Source of the DNA: a virus
Virus record (IMG/VR): IMGVR_UViG_3300023082_000001
Coordinates: 1-64,000 of that record
Length of the DNA: 64,000 nt
Reading direction: 5' to 3' (one strand)
The position numbers and the translations under genes were made by a program. Of this stretch, positions 4,300 through 64,000 are shown piece after piece. Position 1 is the first letter of the stretch, and each line of letters starts with the position of its first letter. Below the pieces are notes generated by a model. That model did not search any database and was not told the DNA's origin. It saw nothing but the letters and a program-made list of their open reading frames with translations.

Positions 4300-5421
4300 T
4301 CAGTCAGTGATTTCTACTTCGTATCTATGGAGTGCTTCATACACACGATTATCAATAAGGTGTTTGTACTTTTCAGCTTGTCGTTTGATTATAACTTCTT
4401 TGTTTACTTTATACCAATTAAAACACTCTTCAATTGTCCCTCCACCACAACCCGTAATACGCTTGCCAAGGTCTGGATCACAAACACTAGCGTGCAGGCT
4501 CCAGTTGCCCTGCCGGGTTTTATACCGCATCACACCAATTGGATAATCTCCACGTCCAGCTTCCCTCTTAGTAAATAGGGCGTTTAACTGGCTTGGCACG
4601 TAAGCGCAAAACTCAGGTGAGTACACCTTATTACCTTTGCAAATAATATCTTTGTCTAATTGCCATCTAGGTGTCCTTGAACCCATTTGATATTTTGCCC
4701 ACTCATAAAAATTTGCAAAAGTGTACCACTCTTCTGTAATACTGCACTGTCTGTACGTTGGTCTTTTATCTAATGCTTTGGTAACATGAACTCGCTCTAT
4801 CATCCCTGACCATGTCATGTAAATAGGTTTGCATGTGTGCCAATCATCTGAAGGCTCTCCATAACAACCAACACCATATACGCTTTTATGGTAAGGGTTA
4901 GCAATCTGACCTAACTTACAGCTCTGTTGAGTTGTTTTTACCCTTCCTTTGAACTCATCCAAAAATTCAACAGTTAGATTGGAGTGCTTTACATATTCTA
5001 CTATTTTTACTCTATAACCTTCATTGGTGTCAAATTCATCCCCTACACAAACAGAAGGAGCATATCCAGGTTTCTTATGTGTACAGCCACAGCACCTTGT
5101 GCCTTGCCTCAAAGATTTTATCTGATGCTTTACAATATTGCCACAGGCACATTCTAGCAGAAACATTCTTACAGGTGCCTTACCTGTAGTTTTTGGTTCA
5201 ATTTCTTTGATAACAGACAACTGCCCAAATTTATACCCTTCTTCAAAAATTTCACGAGTTGGTTTCCTGTAACACAAACACATACGAGTTTTCAAACTGT
5301 CTTTGCGAACCCTACTTAGATGATCTCCACAGTCTGCGCACTCAGCTTCAACATATTTATGATTCTTTTCCTCAATTTCTGAGTAAATTTTCCATCTACT
5401 ACTATCGATATCCATAATCAC
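4300..5421 (-). CDS. Homing-endonuclease-like zinc-ribbon protein
   Basis: 373 aa with N-terminal paired cysteines (AECADCGDH, MCLC, LECACGN, CCGC) that look like two zinc ribbons. A central block (WQLDKDIICKGNKVYSPEFC) is typical of phage HNH/AP2-type homing endonuclease-like proteins, and the C-terminal part resembles their DNA-binding module. The classical catalytic HNH histidines are not obvious, so it may be degenerate or only DNA-binding. It lies between PhoH and ClpP genes with a 4-base overlap with phoH, as expected for an intergenic mobile gene. Confidence 0.6.
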   Translation of the reverse strand: MIMDIDSSRWKIYSEIEEKNHKYVEAECADCGDHLSRVRKDSLKTRMCLCYRKPTREIFEEGYKFGQLSVIKEIEPKTTGKAPVRMFLLECACGNIVKHQIKSLRQGTRCCGCTHKKPGYAPSVCVGDEFDTNEGYRVKIVEYVKHSNLTVEFLDEFKGRVKTTQQSCKLGQIANPYHKSVYGVGCYGEPSDDWHTCKPIYMTWSGMIERVHVTKALDKRPTYRQCSITEEWYTFANFYEWAKYQMGSRTPRWQLDKDIICKGNKVYSPEFCAYVPSQLNALFTKREAGRGDYPIGVMRYKTRQGNWSLHASVCDPDLGKRITGCGGGTIEECFNWYKVNKEVIIKRQAEKYKHLIDNRVYEALHRYEVEITD

Positions 5422-6221
5422 CCCTCATTAGCTCTATCTTTCATCATCCCAATTGCAATATCTCGAACCAGACCGCCGCGAACAATATCCGAAGGGTCAG
5501 AGAAATCAATTACTGCAACTCCTTTCAAATTGTGACGCTCCGCAAAAGACATAAACCATTCAAGACCCGACTCACCTCGAATATCCTTCTGTAAAATGTC
5601 CCCGCACAGAATGAGCTTACACTGGTCGGAAACTCTCGTCACAATACTTTGCATTTCTTCTTTAGTAGTTTGCTGTGCTTCATCAATTACCAAGTATGAT
5701 GGCAAATCAAAAGACCGCCCACGAATACTTTCAACTTCTTGTACCTGAATTTCACCAGACTCTCCATCCTTCAGTGCAATCTCATAAGCTCCTGCCCCAA
5801 TACGAGATTTAATAGTATCTAGTACGTTACGCACATACGGATAGAGTTTTTGAAGTGAACTCCCGGGTTTAAATCCTGATGTTTTACCTGTTTGAACATA
5901 CGCACGAGCTACAATGATCTGTTTAATTTCATTTTTACGAAACTTATCAGCAGCAACCACAGCTGCACAAAAGGTTTTTCCCGTACCATGCAAGCCAAGG
6001 CATACAATTGCTTTGACTTCAGGATCTTCCAATAGACGGAAGTATTCTTTCTGTTTTGCAGTTTTAGCTGTCACAGGTGGTGGATTATTACGTTCTTCTA
6101 GGAACTTCTCTTTAACTTCAGGTTTAACACCACCATTTCGAGTTGATTTAGTCCTTTTTCTAGGTACGAGCACATCTTCACCATTGATAGGGACTACGAA
6201 ATTTCTATTTGATGCACCCAT
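5418..6221 (-). CDS. phoH: PhoH-like P-loop ATPase
   Basis: 267 aa matching the PhoH ATPase domain. The Walker A-like segment is CLGLHGTGKTFCAA (about residues 97-110), Walker B is SYLVIDEAQQTT, and a downstream CGDILQKDIRG block is the conserved sensor region of the family. The first 60 residues are basic and low complexity. PhoH proteins are common in phages and have been linked to RNA metabolism and phosphate stress; the phage function is not settled. It is the first gene after a strong promoter at 6264-6291. Confidence 0.88.
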   Translation of the reverse strand: MGASNRNFVVPINGEDVLVPRKRTKSTRNGGVKPEVKEKFLEERNNPPPVTAKTAKQKEYFRLLEDPEVKAIVCLGLHGTGKTFCAAVVAADKFRKNEIKQIIVARAYVQTGKTSGFKPGSSLQKLYPYVRNVLDTIKSRIGAGAYEIALKDGESGEIQVQEVESIRGRSFDLPSYLVIDEAQQTTKEEMQSIVTRVSDQCKLILCGDILQKDIRGESGLEWFMSFAERHNLKGVAVIDFSDPSDIVRGGLVRDIAIGMMKDRANEG

Positions 6222-6263
6222 ACATTCACCTCTTCATCAATTAATTTAATTTACCACTCTCAC

Positions 6264-6291
6264 ATCTTACTACAACTTCCCCACTTGTCAA
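6264..6291 (-). promoter_or_regulatory. Strong sigma70-type promoter before phoH
   Basis: On the minus strand consensus TTGACA (6291-6286) and TAAGAT (6269-6264) are separated by 16 bases in the 71-base gap upstream of phoH. The leader to the ATG is about 40 bases and A+T rich. This is one of the best promoter matches in the window. Confidence 0.75.
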
Positions 6292-6292
6292 A

Positions 6293-6598
6293 CTATTTCT
6301 TCTCCTTTACAGCCTTCAAAGTATCTTCAGCAGCCTTAAGTGATTCCTTAGCTTTCTTGACAGCCTCTTCTGCTTGCAGTTCCTCTCGTGTCTTACTTAT
6401 AAAAATTACTCTTTCAAAAGTAAGTTCCCTAGCCCCACCACTCTCCTGATAATCCTGAGTTAAATAATATTTATGAACAGCTTCTTTAACTTTTATTTCA
6501 ATAATTCCGCCGTTTACCCCAGCCATAAGGTTACGGGAATATAGTTGTTCATTATCATATATCTTAATAATATTATTAGGGCCGTATTTAAGTTTCAT
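6293..6598 (-). CDS. Hypothetical protein with alanine/lysine helix, about 101 aa
   Basis: Not recognised. The C-terminal third is a long alanine/lysine/glutamate helix (EEAVKKAKESLKAAEDTLK), likely a coiled coil; the N-terminal part looks beta-rich. I chose the ATG at 6598, which has GGAGGG at 7-base spacing. An in-frame ATG at 6619, with GAGG upstream, is an alternative. Confidence 0.65.
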   Translation of the reverse strand: MKLKYGPNNIIKIYDNEQLYSRNLMAGVNGGIIEIKVKEAVHKYYLTQDYQESGGARELTFERVIFISKTREELQAEEAVKKAKESLKAAEDTLKAVKEKK

Positions 6599-6620
6599 GC
6601 CGTTACCCTCCCAAAACATA

Positions 6621-10406: not shown

Positions 10407-10789
10407 AAGTAGCACTCCGAGTATAGAACACCCTCTGTGAACACTTCTTTAATTTGACCGGCACCATTTGCCACACCCCAAGCCTCCTCTCGTGACATCC
10501 ACACTCCCCACTGATCTACAAATCCTTGATCTGTTGCTACAGAATGTGCCTTACAGTCAATGTTCAGGTTATCAATAGTCATTCGCATGATTGGGCAGAA
10601 ATGTTCATTGCCTACGATCAGATGTCCATCTACAATACAAGCTGCCATGCTCACCACACGCTGTACATTATTAAACCTCTCCCACACAGGTATGTAAGAT
10701 CCATCTGTCATACCATGAACCCATGACAAGTGGTTCAGGAATTCACTACCGTATTTAGTAATCTCTTGCATAATTTTCTCCGCACACAT
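10403..10789 (-). CDS. Hypothetical protein, 128 aa
   Basis: Not recognised. Contains several His, Cys and Asp residues (HFCPIMRMTI, DCKAHSVATDQG) that could coordinate metal, but no known motif. First gene after the promoter at 10816-10844. Confidence 0.65.
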   Translation of the reverse strand: MCAEKIMQEITKYGSEFLNHLSWVHGMTDGSYIPVWERFNNVQRVVSMAACIVDGHLIVGNEHFCPIMRMTIDNLNIDCKAHSVATDQGFVDQWGVWMSREEAWGVANGAGQIKEVFTEGVLYSECYL

Positions 10790-10815
10790 TTGTGCATTTC
10801 TGTTTGTCTGTAGCC

Positions 10816-10844
10816 ATTCTAAGGTATACTTGTGGAATGTGCAA
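10816..10844 (-). promoter_or_regulatory. sigma70-type promoter, leftward, with CCCCTTGCACA box
   Basis: On the minus strand TTGCAC (10844-10839) and TAGAAT (10821-10816) are 17 bases apart in the gap between the metallopeptidase gene and the 128-aa gene. The -35 lies in ATTCCCCTTGCACA, which is repeated exactly at the promoter at 11323-11351. Confidence 0.65.
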
Positions 10845-10851
10845 GGGGAAT

Positions 10852-11292
10852 CTAAAGCATTCTGTCATAAGAATGAAAAACATCTGTTGCCTTCTGAGCA
10901 CAGCCATATTCTCTTTTAGCTCTTTTCCAATAAGTCTGGAAAAGCTCCCTTGCACGGGTGCTGTCAAACCTATTCTTTTGCACCCTTTTTGCAAACTTCC
11001 AAGCGATGTACTCTTCTTTCATCGTATCCGCCACAGATTGCTCATACTCAGCACAAGACTTTGCACGATAATACATTCTACGGTGTCTTAAGATGTGTCC
11101 AACCTCGTGCAGAAAAGAATCCATGAAACCTTGATAGAATGGGTTGATAAACACTGTACACTCTGTTTTCTTGTAATCTTTATAATAAGTCATTTTGAAT
11201 TCAGCATGAGACAATCTGAAGACTGGCATCCACAGAATATTGTATTTCCTGCACAGCTTGTAAGCGTAAATCCATTGTGCTAGCTTGTTCAT
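10852..11292 (-). CDS. HEVGH zinc metallopeptidase-like protein, 146 aa
   Basis: Residues about 60-70 (SFLHEVGHILRH) contain the HExxH zinc-peptidase motif with flanking hydrophobics, and a downstream acidic helix (MKEEYIAWKFAKR) gives the E-x2-A-x2-FA pattern typical of ImmA/IrrE-like (M78) peptidases. Size also fits. That family cleaves repressors or anti-repressors. It is the first gene of the leftward early arm, so it would be made right after infection. Start is the ATG at 11292 with AGGTG at 6 bases; an in-frame GTG three codons earlier is an alternative. The target is unknown. Confidence 0.7.
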   Translation of the reverse strand: MNKLAQWIYAYKLCRKYNILWMPVFRLSHAEFKMTYYKDYKKTECTVFINPFYQGFMDSFLHEVGHILRHRRMYYRAKSCAEYEQSVADTMKEEYIAWKFAKRVQKNRFDSTRARELFQTYWKRAKREYGCAQKATDVFHSYDRML

Positions 11293-11322
11293 GTCAATCA
11301 CCTATGTGTTGTGTATGGCATG

Positions 11323-11351
11323 ATTTTATCTGAGGATAGTGCTGTGTGCAA
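11323..11351 (-). promoter_or_regulatory. Head promoter of the leftward early arm
   Basis: On the minus strand TTGCAC (11351-11346) and TAAAAT (11328-11323) are separated by 17 bases, about 30 bases upstream of the metallopeptidase start. It shares the ATTCCCCTTGCACA sequence with the promoter at 10816-10844. Confidence 0.7.
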
Positions 11352-11419
11352 GGGGAATTTGAGATTATTTTTAGGAGGGCATCATAGATGCTGTTGGATA
11401 TTATTTGTGAAGAAAGGGG

Positions 11420-11447
11420 TTGACGTGGGGAGAAAGCGTGGTATTCT
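11420..11447 (+). promoter_or_regulatory. sigma70-type promoter, rightward
   Basis: TTGACG (11420-11425) and TATTCT (11442-11447) are separated by 16 bases in the divergent control region between the early arm and the polymerase-like gene. The leader to the TTG start at 11619 would be about 165 bases. Nothing convincing is coded in 11302-11618. Confidence 0.5.
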
Positions 11448-11542
11448 GTGTCTTATCTGTGGGAGAGCAGTAAGGTTTCTTTGGAGAAAGTACCGAGTAG
11501 CAAGGGGTACAAACCCATATAAACCGTGGGCTGTAGGCTAGT

Positions 11543-11571
11543 TTGTGTACTGGAATACATGTATCTAGTAT
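11543..11571 (+). promoter_or_regulatory. Second rightward promoter candidate
   Basis: TTGTGT (11543-11548) and TAGTAT (11566-11571) are separated by 17 bases, about 48 bases upstream of the polymerase-like gene start. Weaker -35 than the neighbour at 11420, but better placed. Confidence 0.45.
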
Positions 11572-11618
11572 CACCACTATCTATCTACTAATATTTACAA
11601 CCAATAGGAGGAGAGTAG

Positions 11619-12977
11619 TTGATTTATGAATTAAGTAAGATGAAAGAATCAGAAGTATATTCTACTAATCTAAGATGTGTAAGAAGCTATATTTATTATC
11701 ATGAATCTAAATACTACAAGAAGATAGTAGATCATATACTAGAGCATACAGAGGAAAGATGGGAAGAAGCAGTTAGATGGTGGATAAGTAATAGTGCTCG
11801 TGCCATTAAACATAAGGCTACTGGATTTGTATTTAGCTTAGATAAGAATACATATACCAAATCTGTTCAAGGTATTGGATACAGGAAAGTTAAATCTTTA
11901 GTTGATTTTCTTGAGCAAAAGGGTTATATTGATCTTTATAAAGGTTATGTGAAGTCTTGGAAAACAGTTAACGGTAAACCAAAACCTGATGTTGTTGTTC
12001 CCTCATGCCTGATATTTCGTAAGCGAACACTAGATATGTGGGAAGGAGTGGACGTTTCCTATAACCTATGGCGAGACCTTGAAGAAAGTGATCTTGCTAT
12101 CATTCGTAATCGGGAGACTAAAGAATTAATGTCTACTCGTGGTCACAAAGGTTTTAAAGATATCAAATCTGAGGTGAGGAACATGAATAACAGTTTGGAA
12201 GGTGCAGACATTACATTCGATGGTAAGCCAATTGCTGATGTTGCATATCGTCGTATCTTCAGTGGTGATTTGGATAAAGGTGGTAGACTGTACACGCTCG
12301 GTGGTGGTGTCCAACTTCTTCCACAACACATTAGGGCATCGTCCTTAAGGATTGATGGTGAAGCTGTAGTTGAGCTAGACTACTCAGCTATTCACCCCAG
12401 TATCTGCTACCAACAGATGTATAATAACGATGGCTTTAATATTTATGATGTAATGGGAACTGAGTTCTCCCCTTATGATGCTGACTTATCATTCGTTAAA
12501 GTGGATGAGAAGCTAAAAGATCAATGGGAAACATTGACGGGTAAGAAGCACAATCCTAGGCGTTCACTGGCAAAGCTTGGAATTCTTATTGGTATGAATT
12601 CCGACGATATGAACAGCGCAGCGTGGACACTTGGTAACAAGGTGAAGCTTGACAGAGAGAAAGAGGTGGAAGACCAAGAGTTTTATGCTTTAGTTGGTAA
12701 GACAGACTACGGTAAAGTGTTAGAAGCTGTGAGAAGCCATAACGATTTTATTAGAGATATGTTCTTTAATGATGGCGGCATTATGCTTCAGAATATTGAC
12801 AGCAAGATTATGATGAACATTGTTGGTGCAATGGGTGAGAAAGGTCATGCTGTTTTAGCCTATCACGACAGTGTTTTGGTTAAGGAGTCAGCAGAAGATG
12901 ATTTGAGAGAAGCTATGTTTACAGCATGGAAAACAGTCTTAAGTGATACAACATTTTGTAAGGTGGATAAGAAATGA
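11619..12977 (+). CDS. Minimal family-A-polymerase-like protein
   Basis: 452 aa. The second half carries the order of motifs seen in the family A polymerase palm and fingers: GGRLYT near 221-226 (compare the GRL segment of Pol I), VELDYSAIHPS at 251-261 (motif A, Asp254), RRSLAKLGILIGMNS at 314-328 (motif B, Arg315 and Lys319) and AYHDSVLV at 414-421 (motif C, His416-Asp417). Spacing is like Pol I. There is no exonuclease domain. Residues about 85-115 look like a winged helix. The Ser after motif C Asp is as in T7-type RNA polymerases, so DNA polymerase, primase or RNA polymerase activity are all possible. The start is a TTG behind a strong AGGAGGAG. It is separate from the canonical polymerase at 61084. 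Confidence 0.7.
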   Translation: MIYELSKMKESEVYSTNLRCVRSYIYYHESKYYKKIVDHILEHTEERWEEAVRWWISNSARAIKHKATGFVFSLDKNTYTKSVQGIGYRKVKSLVDFLEQKGYIDLYKGYVKSWKTVNGKPKPDVVVPSCLIFRKRTLDMWEGVDVSYNLWRDLEESDLAIIRNRETKELMSTRGHKGFKDIKSEVRNMNNSLEGADITFDGKPIADVAYRRIFSGDLDKGGRLYTLGGGVQLLPQHIRASSLRIDGEAVVELDYSAIHPSICYQQMYNNDGFNIYDVMGTEFSPYDADLSFVKVDEKLKDQWETLTGKKHNPRRSLAKLGILIGMNSDDMNSAAWTLGNKVKLDREKEVEDQEFYALVGKTDYGKVLEAVRSHNDFIRDMFFNDGGIMLQNIDSKIMMNIVGAMGEKGHAVLAYHDSVLVKESAEDDLREAMFTAWKTVLSDTTFCKVDKK

Positions 12978-13823: not shown

Positions 13824-13899
13824 TGGCGATTAGCTCAGTAGGTAGAGCGAGTGACTGTTAATCACTATGTCCCAGATTCGAGTTCTGGATCGCCAGCCA
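13824..13899 (+). tRNA. tRNA-Asn (GTT anticodon)
   Basis: A 76-base cloverleaf. Acceptor TGGCGAT pairs with ATCGCCA; D arm GCTC-AGTAGGTA-GAGC; anticodon stem AGTGA/TCACT with loop CTGTTAA giving anticodon GTT; T arm CCAGA-TTCGAGT-TCTGG; discriminator G and an encoded CCA end. All arms pair perfectly, so this should be functional. It decodes AAC/AAT, which are common in this A+T-rich genome. Confidence 0.95.
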
Positions 13900-19757: not shown

Positions 19758-20720
19758 TTGAATTACGAAAAGATTTACAACGCACTTGTAGAAAAAGCTA
19801 AAGTTCGTGGGTTAGATAAAAGTAAGGACTCTGGCTATTATGAGATTCACCACATTCTTCCGAGATGTTTGGGAGGGTCTGACCATAAAAGTAACCTAGT
19901 GATGTTTACGGGAAGGGAACATTTTATTTCACATATGTTGTTGTGGAAGATGTACCCTAGAAATTCTGATCTTATGCACGCAGCATGGATGATGAGCCAT
20001 ACTCGTAAAGGTTATAAAGTTAATTCAACGACTTATGAAGCTCTCAGTATTGACCACTCTATTTGGCTTTCTGAAAGAATGGGAGGGATAAACAGCCCTC
20101 AATTCAAGGACTTGACAGGTCAGCGAAATGGTAAACTAGTTGTACTTGAACATGTAGGCTGGAAACTGCTTAATAATGGGTTCAGTACATCTACTTGGCT
20201 ATGCCAATGTGACTGTGGAAATTTCAGAACTCTCCAATCTAAAGAAGTTAGCCTTTCTTGTAAATCATCTTATAAGTCTTGCGGTTGTCTTACTGCTGAA
20301 GTCTCCTCATTGAGGGTTGGTGATAAGAATGCTTTCTACGGAAGGACTCATTCAGAAGAATCAAAGGCTAAGATGGCTGAAAAGAAATTTGGGCGTTCAC
20401 CTTCTAACAAAGGTGTAAAAGGAACTCCAGAGAAAAGTCAAAGAATTAAAGATAGTTTGTCAAAAATTAAAAGATTTTCTTGGTTGCACCCCTCTATTAC
20501 ATCAGACCCAGTAAAGACTGAGATGTGGAAGATGGCAATGTTTTATTACGACCTTTATCTTACTAATACAATTTTGACAAAAGCAAAGTTCACAACACTT
20601 TACAATAAACTCTATTGTGATGATATACCTTCATCGGCTCTCTATATTATGCACGATAAATTCTCTGGCGGTTGGGTTCCTTTAGAAGACAGCGAGTGGG
20701 TTAAATTTTCTAAAGGATGA
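19758..20720 (+). CDS. HNH homing endonuclease
   Basis: 320 aa. N-terminal HNH motif: EIHHILPRCLGGSD then SNLVMFTGREHFISHMLL, the usual phage homing-endonuclease form with His-His and the second His of the REHFI-x-H segment. A zinc ribbon (CQCDCGNFR, CGCL) is in the middle. NUMOD3-type DNA-binding repeats follow (HSEESKAKMAEKKFG, PEKSQRIKDSLSK). The start is a TTG with GGAG upstream, in the context TTTTGAATTA, shared with the GIY-YIG-like gene at 34225. It sits immediately upstream of terminase large subunit, with 4 bases between, a typical intergenic insertion. Confidence 0.85.
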   Translation: MNYEKIYNALVEKAKVRGLDKSKDSGYYEIHHILPRCLGGSDHKSNLVMFTGREHFISHMLLWKMYPRNSDLMHAAWMMSHTRKGYKVNSTTYEALSIDHSIWLSERMGGINSPQFKDLTGQRNGKLVVLEHVGWKLLNNGFSTSTWLCQCDCGNFRTLQSKEVSLSCKSSYKSCGCLTAEVSSLRVGDKNAFYGRTHSEESKAKMAEKKFGRSPSNKGVKGTPEKSQRIKDSLSKIKRFSWLHPSITSDPVKTEMWKMAMFYYDLYLTNTILTKAKFTTLYNKLYCDDIPSSALYIMHDKFSGGWVPLEDSEWVKFSKG

Positions 20721-34224: not shown

Positions 34225-35238
34225 TTGAATTATGCAGATGTTGGGGAAATAATAAGAGATGATTTTAGTGGCTTCGAGTATGGTCATGAGGGTCAAATTT
34301 TAGTTTTAGGTAAAACAGAGAAAATTGCAAACGGTTCAAAATACGAAAGATTCTACGCTATCCTATGTTCCAGATGTGTAGGTGATTCTGAGTTATTTGG
34401 TGAAGGCATATTTCTAGCTACTAAAAGTAGTCTTAAACGTGGTCAAATACCTTGTGGCTGCTCTTTTGCCTATAGGAAAACAAAAGAGTATTACGAAATC
34501 GTATGCCAAAGAAAAGCAGACTCCATGGGTTATATTTTTCTTGGTTTCGCTGAAAATTTTTCAGACCGAAAAACTAAACTATGCCTTTCTTGTCCCACAC
34601 ATGGTGAATGGAGGTCTGGTATTATTAATAACTTCCTTGGTCGTGGCATTGGATGTCCGGGTTGTAAAAGAACTGCTGTAGGATTAAGAGCTAGCAAAGA
34701 AGATAAGGAGATCACTGATCAATTCTTTTCAACGGGTGCTTATCATCCCGAAAGTATTTTTGAAAGAAGTGATCGTGTTAATAAAAATGGTCATAAACTT
34801 TATTGGAAGTTCACTTGTGGTTTGTGTAAAGTATCTGCTGAAAGTGATATTTCAAGTTTTAAATTGGGATGCTACCCTTGTGCATGTTCAAATAGAATAC
34901 AAACCGCAGCGTACGTAAACTTACTCTCCGACAATGGAACGCCTTTATTCTTAAAGGTTGGTATTTCAAAAAGTCCAGAAGCAAGACTCAAGGATCAACA
35001 GAGATACTCTAGATTTGAAGTATCTAGTTTGTTTATTTATGACTTCAAATCAAAAGAAGAATGCCGCAGGGCCGAACGAGAGTGTATTAATAGTTTGCAA
35101 ATGGGGCTGGTGGGGGAATCTGAATTTCCAGATGGTTACACCGAAACAACATACATTCATAATCTAGAAAAGATCCTACAAATTTTTCATAAGAATAACG
35201 GTGTAAAAAGGGTATTGTCAAATGACATTAGCTATTAG
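34225..35238 (+). CDS. GIY-YIG-like homing endonuclease
   Basis: 337 aa. The C-terminal domain (AYVNLLSDNGTPLFLKVGIS then EARLKDQQRYS, with later ECRRAERECINSL and SEFPDGYTET) resembles the GIY-YIG/T5orf172-like nuclease fold. The N-terminal part has zinc-finger cysteines (LCSRC, CLSCPTHGEW, GCPGC). TTG start within TTTTGAATTA, the same context as the HNH gene at 19758. It separates tape measure from the Dit-like gene and overlaps the latter by 17 bases. Confidence 0.7.
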   Translation: MNYADVGEIIRDDFSGFEYGHEGQILVLGKTEKIANGSKYERFYAILCSRCVGDSELFGEGIFLATKSSLKRGQIPCGCSFAYRKTKEYYEIVCQRKADSMGYIFLGFAENFSDRKTKLCLSCPTHGEWRSGIINNFLGRGIGCPGCKRTAVGLRASKEDKEITDQFFSTGAYHPESIFERSDRVNKNGHKLYWKFTCGLCKVSAESDISSFKLGCYPCACSNRIQTAAYVNLLSDNGTPLFLKVGISKSPEARLKDQQRYSRFEVSSLFIYDFKSKEECRRAERECINSLQMGLVGESEFPDGYTETTYIHNLEKILQIFHKNNGVKRVLSNDISY

Positions 35239-61083: not shown

Positions 61084-63228
61084 TTAGTGAATTTCTGAAT
61101 ATCGTTCGCCAAACTGTGTTTCACACCCAAGCTTCCTACGTAGTTTATACTTTTCATTTACAATGTCAATTGCTTTACCAATTATCTCCTTAAACTCTTC
61201 ACGATACTTCGGTAAGTCTTTGATTACAAAGACATTTTCGTCATGAAACTCACCGGTCAACGTTTTTCTGTTATACCGACGCTGTTGCTCTTCTAGAATC
61301 TCATCCACCCACATATCAAAAAAGTATGAGCCAGTCCCTTGGGCCAAGGTTGAGAACCTATCTGCCTCTGAGCGAAGGGCATAGCAAAACCCGTTAATGG
61401 GGTTTACAAGCCATTTACGACCTCGGCTGTCACGAATAACAACTTGTTCATCTGCAATAGCCTTCACAGACCAATTCAGCTTCCAGTAAGCCTCGTGCAA
61501 AGTTTTGCCTTCTTTAAGGCTTACGCCTGCTGCTTGGGCGATCTTGGCAGCCCCAGCATTATACACAGAAGCATAGTTGGTTGTCTTACCCTTCTTACGG
61601 GCTGCCTTTGCATTGCTAGACTTCTCTCCACGTTTAAAATCGTCATACTCTTTTTGAGTAACCATCTTAGCAGTAAGTGCCATAAGAATGTGAGGATCGA
61701 AGTCGTCCTCTTGCATAGTTGCTACATACTCAGGGTCATAAGGCAACATAAAATGGTGTTTGGTTCGATCCTCAAGGCTGCTAAGGTCGGAACCAACGCT
61801 TATTTTTCCTTTGCCTGAAATCAAAACTCCTCGAATCAAATCCCCGTGAGGCTTATCTACTCCCGGCAAGTTTACAATTTCACGGTGCATGACACGCAAA
61901 GTGTTAGTGAAACCGCCGATACGAGCCTGAAGCCACTTACCATCTTTAAGGTCACGAATAAAGCCTTTAATAACGCCCAGACGATGTTTGGCTACGTTGT
62001 ATTCTGCATACTTACGAATAGCTGGAACATCTTCGGCCAGCTCTAATACAGACTCACACAGCTCTTTACCATCATCGCCACCAACACTGATTTGAGGAAT
62101 TGCACGCTCTTCTGGCTTACTGTTTTTCCATTCAGTCCATTTGCTATTATGAGAGCCTTCCTTTGGTTTCTTTTCAATCCAAGCATTAAAAGCTTCTTCG
62201 TCTTTTTCATAACGGAACGATGTAGGAACCCAACCGTGTGAATAAAGCAATGCTTTCACTTGCGCCGGTGAAGATGCCTTTGGTTCCTCGTAACCGTTTA
62301 GTACCTTAAAAACCCCCTTAACTTCTGTATCTTCAACCTTAAGTGTGCCGTACTCATCAACCTCTTTAGCTTCATACACCTGCATAAGCTCATTCCACTT
62401 AACGCCAAGTGAAGAAAGAGATGTGTCTTTCTTAAACATCTTCTTAGGCTTTTCTTTCTTTACGTACTGAGGAACCTTTGGCATTACGGCCTCAAGGGCC
62501 ACAGTTGTCTCATTCACAATGGCTTCAAGTTTCTTTTCCGATTCCAGAAGCAACTCAGTATCAACTTCCCACCGTGTCTTTTCTTGAAGACGGGCACAAT
62601 CCATTTTGAACATAAGGAATGTCAGAAGACGATTGATATGCTCTTCTACAGACAAACCCCTAAGCTTATCAATAGCCAACACTTCATCGTCATCAATGCG
62701 TTTTCCCCCAACTGCTCCAGCATCAATTTCTGTCTTTGCTGTTGTGTACAACTCAATTAGACGTTTCTTAAGATCTTTCCATAAGGCTTGGTTGATCTTA
62801 ACGTCTTCTACTACTCGGTTTTGGTACACCTCATAAGGCTGTTCATTCCAATCCTCAACTGCTGGTTTTTCAATTCCATAGTCCTCGTGAAATGTGCCCA
62901 AACCGTGCATCTTGCGTTCTGGGTTGAGATACCAGCTTAAGGCCAAGGTGTCAATCAGCATTAACTTAGACAGATCAATACCAAACAACTTCTCCATGAG
63001 CGGTACGTCAAATGAAATACCGTTATGCATAACAATTGGAGTTTCGTTATCAATATGCCACTGAAAGAATTTTACAATTCGTTCTGATTCACTTGAACCT
63101 TTAAATGTCAAGATATCTTTCATATTCATCTGGAAACCAAGAACATGAAGCTTTGTGGCTACATCGAGGAAGCCATCACTTTCCAAGTCTGCGACTGTTG
63201 CTTGTTTCCAGTTATAAATATTCTTCAA
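61084..63228 (-). CDS. Replicative family A DNA polymerase with 3'-5' exonuclease
   Basis: 714 aa from a TTG at 63228 with AAGGAG at 7 bases. Exonuclease motif I VADLESDGF lies at about residues 10-18 and further exo motifs follow. Polymerase motif A is SVGSDLSSLEDRT, motif B ARKKGKTTNYASVYNAGA and motif C GEFHDENVFVI (HDE). Size and order match T7 gp5-type polymerases (about 704 aa). This is the main replication enzyme. Confidence 0.93.
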   Translation of the reverse strand: MKNIYNWKQATVADLESDGFLDVATKLHVLGFQMNMKDILTFKGSSESERIVKFFQWHIDNETPIVMHNGISFDVPLMEKLFGIDLSKLMLIDTLALSWYLNPERKMHGLGTFHEDYGIEKPAVEDWNEQPYEVYQNRVVEDVKINQALWKDLKKRLIELYTTAKTEIDAGAVGGKRIDDDEVLAIDKLRGLSVEEHINRLLTFLMFKMDCARLQEKTRWEVDTELLLESEKKLEAIVNETTVALEAVMPKVPQYVKKEKPKKMFKKDTSLSSLGVKWNELMQVYEAKEVDEYGTLKVEDTEVKGVFKVLNGYEEPKASSPAQVKALLYSHGWVPTSFRYEKDEEAFNAWIEKKPKEGSHNSKWTEWKNSKPEERAIPQISVGGDDGKELCESVLELAEDVPAIRKYAEYNVAKHRLGVIKGFIRDLKDGKWLQARIGGFTNTLRVMHREIVNLPGVDKPHGDLIRGVLISGKGKISVGSDLSSLEDRTKHHFMLPYDPEYVATMQEDDFDPHILMALTAKMVTQKEYDDFKRGEKSSNAKAARKKGKTTNYASVYNAGAAKIAQAAGVSLKEGKTLHEAYWKLNWSVKAIADEQVVIRDSRGRKWLVNPINGFCYALRSEADRFSTLAQGTGSYFFDMWVDEILEEQQRRYNRKTLTGEFHDENVFVIKDLPKYREEFKEIIGKAIDIVNEKYKLRRKLGCETQFGERYSEIH

Positions 63229-63239
63229 AACAATACTCC

Positions 63240-64000
63240 TTAAAGTGAATCTCCTTCCCATTCATATTGGAGGAGCAAACCTGTGTTGGGTTGATACTGA
63301 GTCTTAAACTTATCCTCACCGCCAAACATACGATTCTTAATACAACCAATAAAGCTGTTGGACTTCAGATCGCCAAGTGCATGTTTATTTCGCTCAAAAC
63401 TCATAAGTAAGGGGAAAGCACGCATAATACCACGGCTACCTGTGAATTGGGAAGCAAATACTTCGCCGCCGTTCTCGTGGTCCCGAACGTCCTTACCTTT
63501 TGGTGGGTTCAAGTGGCTGTACACACCAATATGAATGTCAAGCTCTGCTGCTAGGTTAGCAATCTCAGACGACCACTTGTTGATAAATTCGTTAGCTTCA
63601 GCACTTGACAAATGATCGACCAAACGGGTCATGTTATCAATCTCAACAAACCTAACACCATATTCCATTGCATTGTAACGGATAGCTTTTACAATCTCTT
63701 CAATATCAAATCTGTTAGCTGCTGCTTGACCATCACTCTCCCACAAAAACAATTTACCTTCAAGGCTATAAGCTGTCTCCAAATATTGTTCACGGTGTTG
63801 TTCGTGAGCACTTGGAAGATGATAAGGGATGCCATCAATCTTGCCTGCAATATTGTACAAAGTAGAACGGTTAGGCTCTTCCAACAAAACAGAAAAGACT
63901 TTTTCTTTATGCTCAATAATGTTGTGGGCCGACTTCATATGAGACAAGAGAGTCTTCCCAAGGCCGACGCCAGCCCCTGTACATGTTGCCTCACCCATAC
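63240..64000 (-). CDS. DnaB/T7 gp4-like replicative helicase, partial
   Basis: The gene runs off the right edge. Visible part: Walker A GAGVGLGKT, Walker B-like VRFVEIDNMTRLV, and HLNPPKGKDVRDHENGGEVFASQFTGSRGIMRAF with FERNK, the arginine-finger and DNA-loop motifs of T7 gp4/DnaB. A primase domain, if present, is outside the window. Directly upstream of the DNA polymerase gene. Confidence 0.88.
   Translation of the reverse strand, partial: MGEATCTGAGVGLGKTLLSHMKSAHNIIEHKEKVFSVLLEEPNRSTLYNIAGKIDGIPYHLPSAHEQHREQYLETAYSLEGKLFLWESDGQAAANRFDIEEIVKAIRYNAMEYGVRFVEIDNMTRLVDHLSSAEANEFINKWSSEIANLAAELDIHIGVYSHLNPPKGKDVRDHENGGEVFASQFTGSRGIMRAFPLLMSFERNKHALGDLKSNSFIGCIKNRMFGGEDKFKTQYQPNTGLLLQYEWEGDSL

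Follow-up and report, generated by a model that had tools for sequence, protein, structure and literature searches.

A divPolA2-type polymerase in a phage with its own T7-like replicative polymerase: possible accessory DNA synthesis and a variable active-site triad

DivPolA2 proteins were named by Yutin et al. in barbaviruses and other viruses, which carry one to three copies per genome, and were proposed to be repair DNA polymerases or RNA polymerases (Virol J 21:200, 2024; PMC11348598). The published Dali comparison also retrieved the mitochondrial and N4 RNA polymerases, and that text mentions TV-Pol for other viruses only. The TV-Pols are predicted primase-polymerases found in the setting of resolvases and lambda-type integrases (Iyer, Abhiman and Aravind 2008, PMC2579912). 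CcPol, a truncated family A polymerase that is counted among the TV-Pols, uses dNTPs for priming in the pair it forms with the protein MP (PMC7581432). No assay or activity of any divPolA2 family member was found in the literature.

The gene described here lies in a 64,000-nt stretch of DNA (the window), which is part of a virus record with a total of 89,412 bases. A preliminary description, made from the letters alone, had recognized a 452-aa polymerase-like protein of a little-studied family. The reading frame is present on the plus strand as described, and the family is indeed little studied, corresponding to PHROG 4756/divPolA2, which was published in 2024. PHROG 4756, whose function is unassigned, is matched by residues 3–450, i.e. 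the full length of the protein (E = 2e-81). The divPolA2 representative AUR84708 matches the same group at full length (E = 2e-91) and the protein here in a pairwise comparison (E = 7e-9), and the Barba19A protein also belongs to the group. The shared features are the size, an N-terminal domain in place of the thumb, the absence of an exonuclease, the presence of paralogues, and the occurrence in addition to a normal DNA polymerase. On sequence grounds, we assign the protein to divPolA2 and not to a new family. A tblastn search found relatives in 246 phage records, almost all annotated as 'hypothetical protein', from phages of Vibrio, Rheinheimera, Aeromonas, Pseudoalteromonas, and Shewanella. 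A search with one relative as the query gave 290 records in total, with ICP1 and Klebsiella phages as new entries among the top matches. Members of the family are found widely among phages of marine and fresh waters, ICP1 of Vibrio cholerae being one example, and genomes with two or three copies are common.

Sequence comparisons with known polymerases gave little. The protein had no match in Pfam (where PF00476, DNA_pol_A, gave none above the cut-off), NCBIfam, or PADLOC, and a phmmer search of the single sequence against the PDB returned nothing. The family profile gave only sub-threshold matches in the PDB, among them a DNA polymerase I whose alignment covers motifs A, B, and C (E = 0.07). 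Profile-profile comparisons with small alignments of DNA and RNA polymerases were not significant alone (E = 0.04–0.13), the DNA polymerase alignment being in register. The assignment to family A is therefore based on the structural model and not on the sequence-profile comparisons. The AlphaFold2 model, built with 27 aligned sequences (mean pLDDT 90.4, pTM 0.84), has the right-hand palm polymerase fold that the preliminary description had anticipated. The 50 best matches of a Foldseek search against the PDB were all family A DNA polymerases (probability 0.99–1.00), headed by Aquifex PolI (E = 2.6e-6) and including the apicoplast polymerase, T7 DNA polymerase, and Taq. The low TM-scores of these matches (about 0.3) reflect a different N-terminal part and probably also a different domain arrangement. 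In the model, Asp254 is located at the end of a strand (248–255) and Asp417 in the turn of a hairpin (413–415/418–422), which is a palm-like arrangement. The protein is almost certainly a polymerase of the family A type.

Table 1. Features of the polymerase gene and its upstream region (window coordinates).
Feature	Position	Strand	Basis
Sigma-70-like promoter TTGACG-16-TATTCT, extended TG (predicted)	11420-11447	+	consensus scan only
Conserved non-coding leader GAGAAAGTACCGAGTAG...ACAAACCCNTATAAACCGTGGNCTGTAG	11484-11537	+	alignment of 9 leaders
Shine-Dalgarno AGGAGG	11606-11611	+	sequence
divPolA2-type polymerase gene, paralogue 1, 452 aa, TTG start	11619-12977	+	PHROG 4756, AF2 + Foldseek, purifying selection
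N-terminal winged-helix-like domain, residues 1-139 (plausible)	11619-12035	+	AF2 of domain alone; non-significant PDB matches
Pre-motif-A beta-hairpin: GGR (R223), Q232, R239	12282-12335	+	(near-)invariant, family A register
Motif A: catalytic Asp254, sugar-gate position His259	12372-12404	+	alignment
Motif B / O-helix: R315, K319, N327	12561-12599	+	alignment; model helix 313-327
QxxDS motif (Q391, S395), before motif C	12789-12803	+	conservation
Motif C: His416-Asp417-Ser418	12864-12872	+	alignment

The predicted fold bears out the earlier view that an exonuclease is missing. The usual thumb is also absent from the model, and an N-terminal domain takes the place of both. When the N-terminal 159 residues were modelled alone (pLDDT 89.8), the PDB matches were mostly winged-helix proteins (CodY, MarR type, eS10, and TcpK), none of which was significant (E = 0.08 or worse). 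The winged-helix-like N-terminus of the preliminary description is therefore retained as plausible: the kind of best match agrees with it, and the significance does not.

The motifs quoted earlier are all present (GGRLY at 221–225, ELDYSAIHPS at 252–261, RRSLAKLGILIGMNS at 314–328, and AYHDSVLV at 414–421), and they are not chance resemblances, as R239, D254, and D417 are invariant in 55 distinct relatives. R223, R315, K319, S395, and H416 are each kept in 54 of the 55. Eight catalytic positions are in register with T7 DNA polymerase: R223, R239, D254, and R315 correspond to its R429, R452, D475, and R518, and K319, Q391, H416, and D417 to its K522, Q615, H653, and D654. In clear contrast to this common framework with DNA polymerase I and T7 DNA polymerase, which accompanies the common fold, the protein here has no exonuclease and no PF00476 match, and three positions that are Glu/Tyr/Glu in DNA polymerases (the sugar gate, the O-helix Tyr position, and the residue after the motif C Asp) are His/Asn/Ser. 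Among the relatives, the gate residue is His in 51, Glu in two, Trp in one, and Ala in one; a bulky residue (His, Trp, or Glu) is thus present in all but one of the 55, and Gly in none. The O-helix Tyr position is Asn in 50 of 55, and the position after the motif C Asp, which is Glu in family A DNA polymerases, is Ser in 52 of 55. Because T7 RNA polymerase has Gly/Tyr/Ser at the triad, most of the family matches neither polymerase class.

Some members have a different triad. ICP1 (locus L023, 7803–9107) and AUR84708 possess Glu/Tyr/Glu, in which AUR84708 differs from the protein here and from most relatives, indicating that a DNA-polymerase active site exists within the family. Vibrio phage P018-4 has Glu/Asn/Glu. 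Gate Glu and motif C Glu only co-occur within the set and are never found singly; ICP1-type members with both are seen at loci L023, L022, and L112. In the tree, ICP1 and P018-4 form one clade (support 100/98) inside the phage part, adjoining the barbavirus protein, whose gate residue is Trp. This position suggests that the Glu-type active site was a later change, in a tree that is midpoint-rooted and whose root is not established. With His/Asn/Ser and Glu/Tyr/Glu in one family, the question of DNA or RNA synthesis becomes reducible to a few mutants.

A second paralogue is located outside the window at 70390–71763 of the genome (L010 8391–9764). It runs rightward from a TTG start and is 33% identical to the first copy. 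Copies 1 and 2 fall in two well-supported old clades of the tree. The dN/dS values among close relatives are 0.03–0.13 for copy 1 and 0.04–0.10 for copy 2; judged from these ratios, both paralogues are under strong purifying selection. In 18 related virus records, at least one copy is found in 18 of 18 and two in seven, with a third diverged type counted. This third, more diverged divPolA2 type accompanies copy-1 or copy-2 types in six records (G002, G003, G008, G009, G013, and G016). In Pseudomonas phage M1, the single copy found belongs to the copy-2 clade and occupies the site equivalent to that of copy 1 here, the head of a rightward operon ahead of tRNA and terminase genes. Because M1 holds the copy-2 type at the copy-1 site, the types appear to replace each other.

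As the preliminary description had stated, the phage also has a T7-like replicative polymerase (61084–63261), with a DNA_pol_A match (E = 6e-12) and an RNase-H-like exonuclease in Pfam. The genome further encodes a Toprim primase-helicase. Given these two genes, the divPolA2-type product is probably not the replicase.

A scan of GTDB gave twelve bacterial proteins with 24–29% identity and one phage-like contig binned as Bacteroidota. Genes of serine resolvases (Pfam Resolvase) adjoin the bacterial relatives at L071, L072, and L074, and those of tyrosine integrases (Pfam Phage_integrase) adjoin relatives at L069, L070, L072, L074, and L078. In the deltaproteobacterial element at L074, two polymerase genes (4855–6603 and 10717–12396) flank genes for an integrase and a resolvase. 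The L070 relative appears to be part of a prophage, with terminase-like and portal-like neighbours judged by eye, and a further relative is on a Thioclava plasmid. The resolvase/integrase neighbourhood was seen for several bacterial relatives and not for the phage gene. The relatives on bacterial integrative elements suggest a source of the phage enzymes, and they would add further members to the non-classical primases.

This setting of gamma-delta-type resolvases and lambda-type integrases is also that of the TV-Pols, with which the protein shares a minimal family A core, the hairpin Arg, the two palm Asp residues, the RxxxK of the fingers, and the lack of a nuclease domain. The N-domain of TV-Pols is described as all-helical (PMC2579912), whereas it is alpha+beta here, and no D5 helicase was seen. 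The family profile did not match phage Ma-LMM01, a reported TV-Pol carrier and the only published one compared. The CcPol-MP and PolA-SSB primases of SCCmec and other Bacillota elements (PMC7581432, PMC10061031) are likewise truncated family A enzymes on mobile elements and additional to the host replicase, but they come from another host group, and no conserved SSB or helicase gene was seen next to the polymerase gene here.

The TTG of the phage gene is its real start, because TTG, GTG, or ATG is found at the equivalent position in relatives behind a Shine-Dalgarno sequence, and the DNA upstream is divergent. The TTG itself is kept in most relatives of both copies (window 11619; copy 2 at L010 8391), which suggests weak translation. 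Further upstream, a TTGAC-type sequence is retained in most relatives, and a leader element is conserved whereas its flanking sequence diverges in an alignment of nine leaders. The element occurs once within the window. Its 17-mer core was found in nine viral contigs, and in all eight with enough downstream sequence, a polymerase frame begins about 119–143 nt further on. A looser, hairpin-like version lies upstream of copy 2 (L010 8285–8323) and of the phage M1 gene. Individual paralogue-2 leaders fold well (z of −2 to −3), and structure is supported for the copy-2 leaders only; RNAalifold with shuffles gave no structure support over the whole leader set (mean z −0.8), so the leader was rejected as a proven RNA hairpin. 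An Rfam search returned tRNA only and no match for the leader. As a guess, the element may control translation of the polymerase gene.

We consider the chances about even that the protein is an accessory DNA polymerase that resembles the TV-Pols and may prime its own synthesis. DNA synthesis is favoured because the closest folds are DNA polymerases, the gate is bulky, a Glu/Tyr/Glu lineage exists, and CcPol primes with dNTPs; the catalytic residues, the mobile-element setting, and the purifying selection are also in line with an accessory enzyme of this kind. The enzyme would consist of a minimal palm and fingers unit with two metal-binding Asp residues, in which the winged-helix-like N-domain, probably DNA-binding, would substitute for the exonuclease and the usual thumb. 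Most likely it would be a second polymerase, non-replicative, that copies a DNA template into DNA and can start or re-start synthesis at sites picked by the N-terminal domain. Such a role would be akin to that of a primase-polymerase, a function that has been proposed for the TV-Pols and demonstrated for the CcPol-MP pair. Production would be low, given the TTG start and the conserved leader, and would take place beside the T7-like polymerase and the Toprim primase-helicase. Several observations oppose an accessory DNA polymerase: the His gate, the Asn of the O-helix, and an HDS motif C, which is that of T7 RNA polymerase, in place of Glu, Tyr, and HDE; the lack of a linked helicase or SSB gene, unlike CcPol-MP; the phage's own primase-helicase; the mitochondrial and N4 RNA polymerases among the published Dali matches; and the negative Ma-LMM01 comparison. 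The earlier statement that DNA and RNA synthesis cannot be told apart still holds formally, and the choice has been narrowed by the gate, the promoter scan, and phage KASIA (see below). A broader proposal, which we put forward as doubtful, is that divPolA2 and the mobile-element polymerases might constitute one superfamily of self-starting enzymes with sugar selection by His/Asn/Ser, start-site choice by the winged helix, and a switched triad in the ICP1 type. If this were true, the ICP1-type switch to the DNA-polymerase triad would be a natural experiment on the choice between DNA and RNA.

A primer-dependent DNA polymerase for repair or gap filling at phage or host DNA damage, the first option of Yutin et al. 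(PMC11348598), is unlikely in our estimate, albeit the foremost of the alternatives. The AlphaFold2 and Foldseek evidence fits it equally well, as do a non-replicative character without exonuclease and a variable neighbourhood. However, no link to repair genes was seen, a repair enzyme would not usually be present as several paralogues in one genome, and the winged-helix-like domain and the mobile-element relatives better suit an initiator.

Less probable still is an RNA polymerase that makes primers or transcripts and does not depend on T7-type promoters; it might, for instance, start RNA chains at a single origin or hairpin, or at a few of them. The HDS of motif C and the QxxDS motif resemble T7 RNA polymerase, the steric gate Glu is missing in most relatives, and both paralogues are preceded by the leader element, which is hairpin-like in some. 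Yet the gate (H259 here) is bulky and never Gly, the equivalent of Tyr639 is Asn (N327), the nearest folds are those of DNA polymerases, and no occurrence of the leader element was found away from the polymerase gene itself.

The HDS motif and the position of the gene at the head of a rightward operon would also suit a T7-like transcriptase that transcribes the phage genes from a promoter family of its own, raised as possible in PMC11348598; we regard this as improbable. No promoter family was found in the genome by a repeat scan that recovered the T7 promoter as a positive control: at most four copies (of a 14-mer) or seven (of a low-complexity 17-mer) were present, against 15–17 in the T7 control. 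The protein has the HDS motif C, an Asp, and the RxxxK in common with T7-like RNA polymerases but is half their size, with only 89 residues from motif B to motif C, versus about 171 in T7 RNA polymerase, and it lacks the specificity-loop insertion. Moreover, phage KASIA has a separate single-subunit RNA polymerase gene slightly upstream, on the same strand and in the same block. Least likely of all, and very improbable, is a catalytically dead palm protein that regulates through DNA binding or acts against the host. The winged-helix-like domain, small size, multiple copies, and unusual triad might speak for it, but both metal Asp residues, both hairpin Arg residues, and the RxxxK are kept in 54–55 of 55 relatives despite very large divergence.

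No mention of the triad pattern or the bacterial relatives, of the history of the two copies in this phage group, or of the leader element was found in the text consulted of Yutin et al. (2024). A 64-aa ORF downstream of the polymerase gene had been taken for its partner; this was rejected because the downstream gene differs among relatives whose polymerases are 69–96% identical. Small genes (about 60 aa) precede many family members, with no evident shared sequence. A tRNA-Asn(gtt) gene (13824–13899) separates the polymerase operon from the structural genes; the equivalent place in phage M1 is occupied by tRNA-Pro, -Asn, and -Thr. Three ORFs (4300–5421, 19758–20720, and 34225–35238), homing-endonuclease-like (HNH/GIY-YIG) by eye, are inserted among the phage genes.
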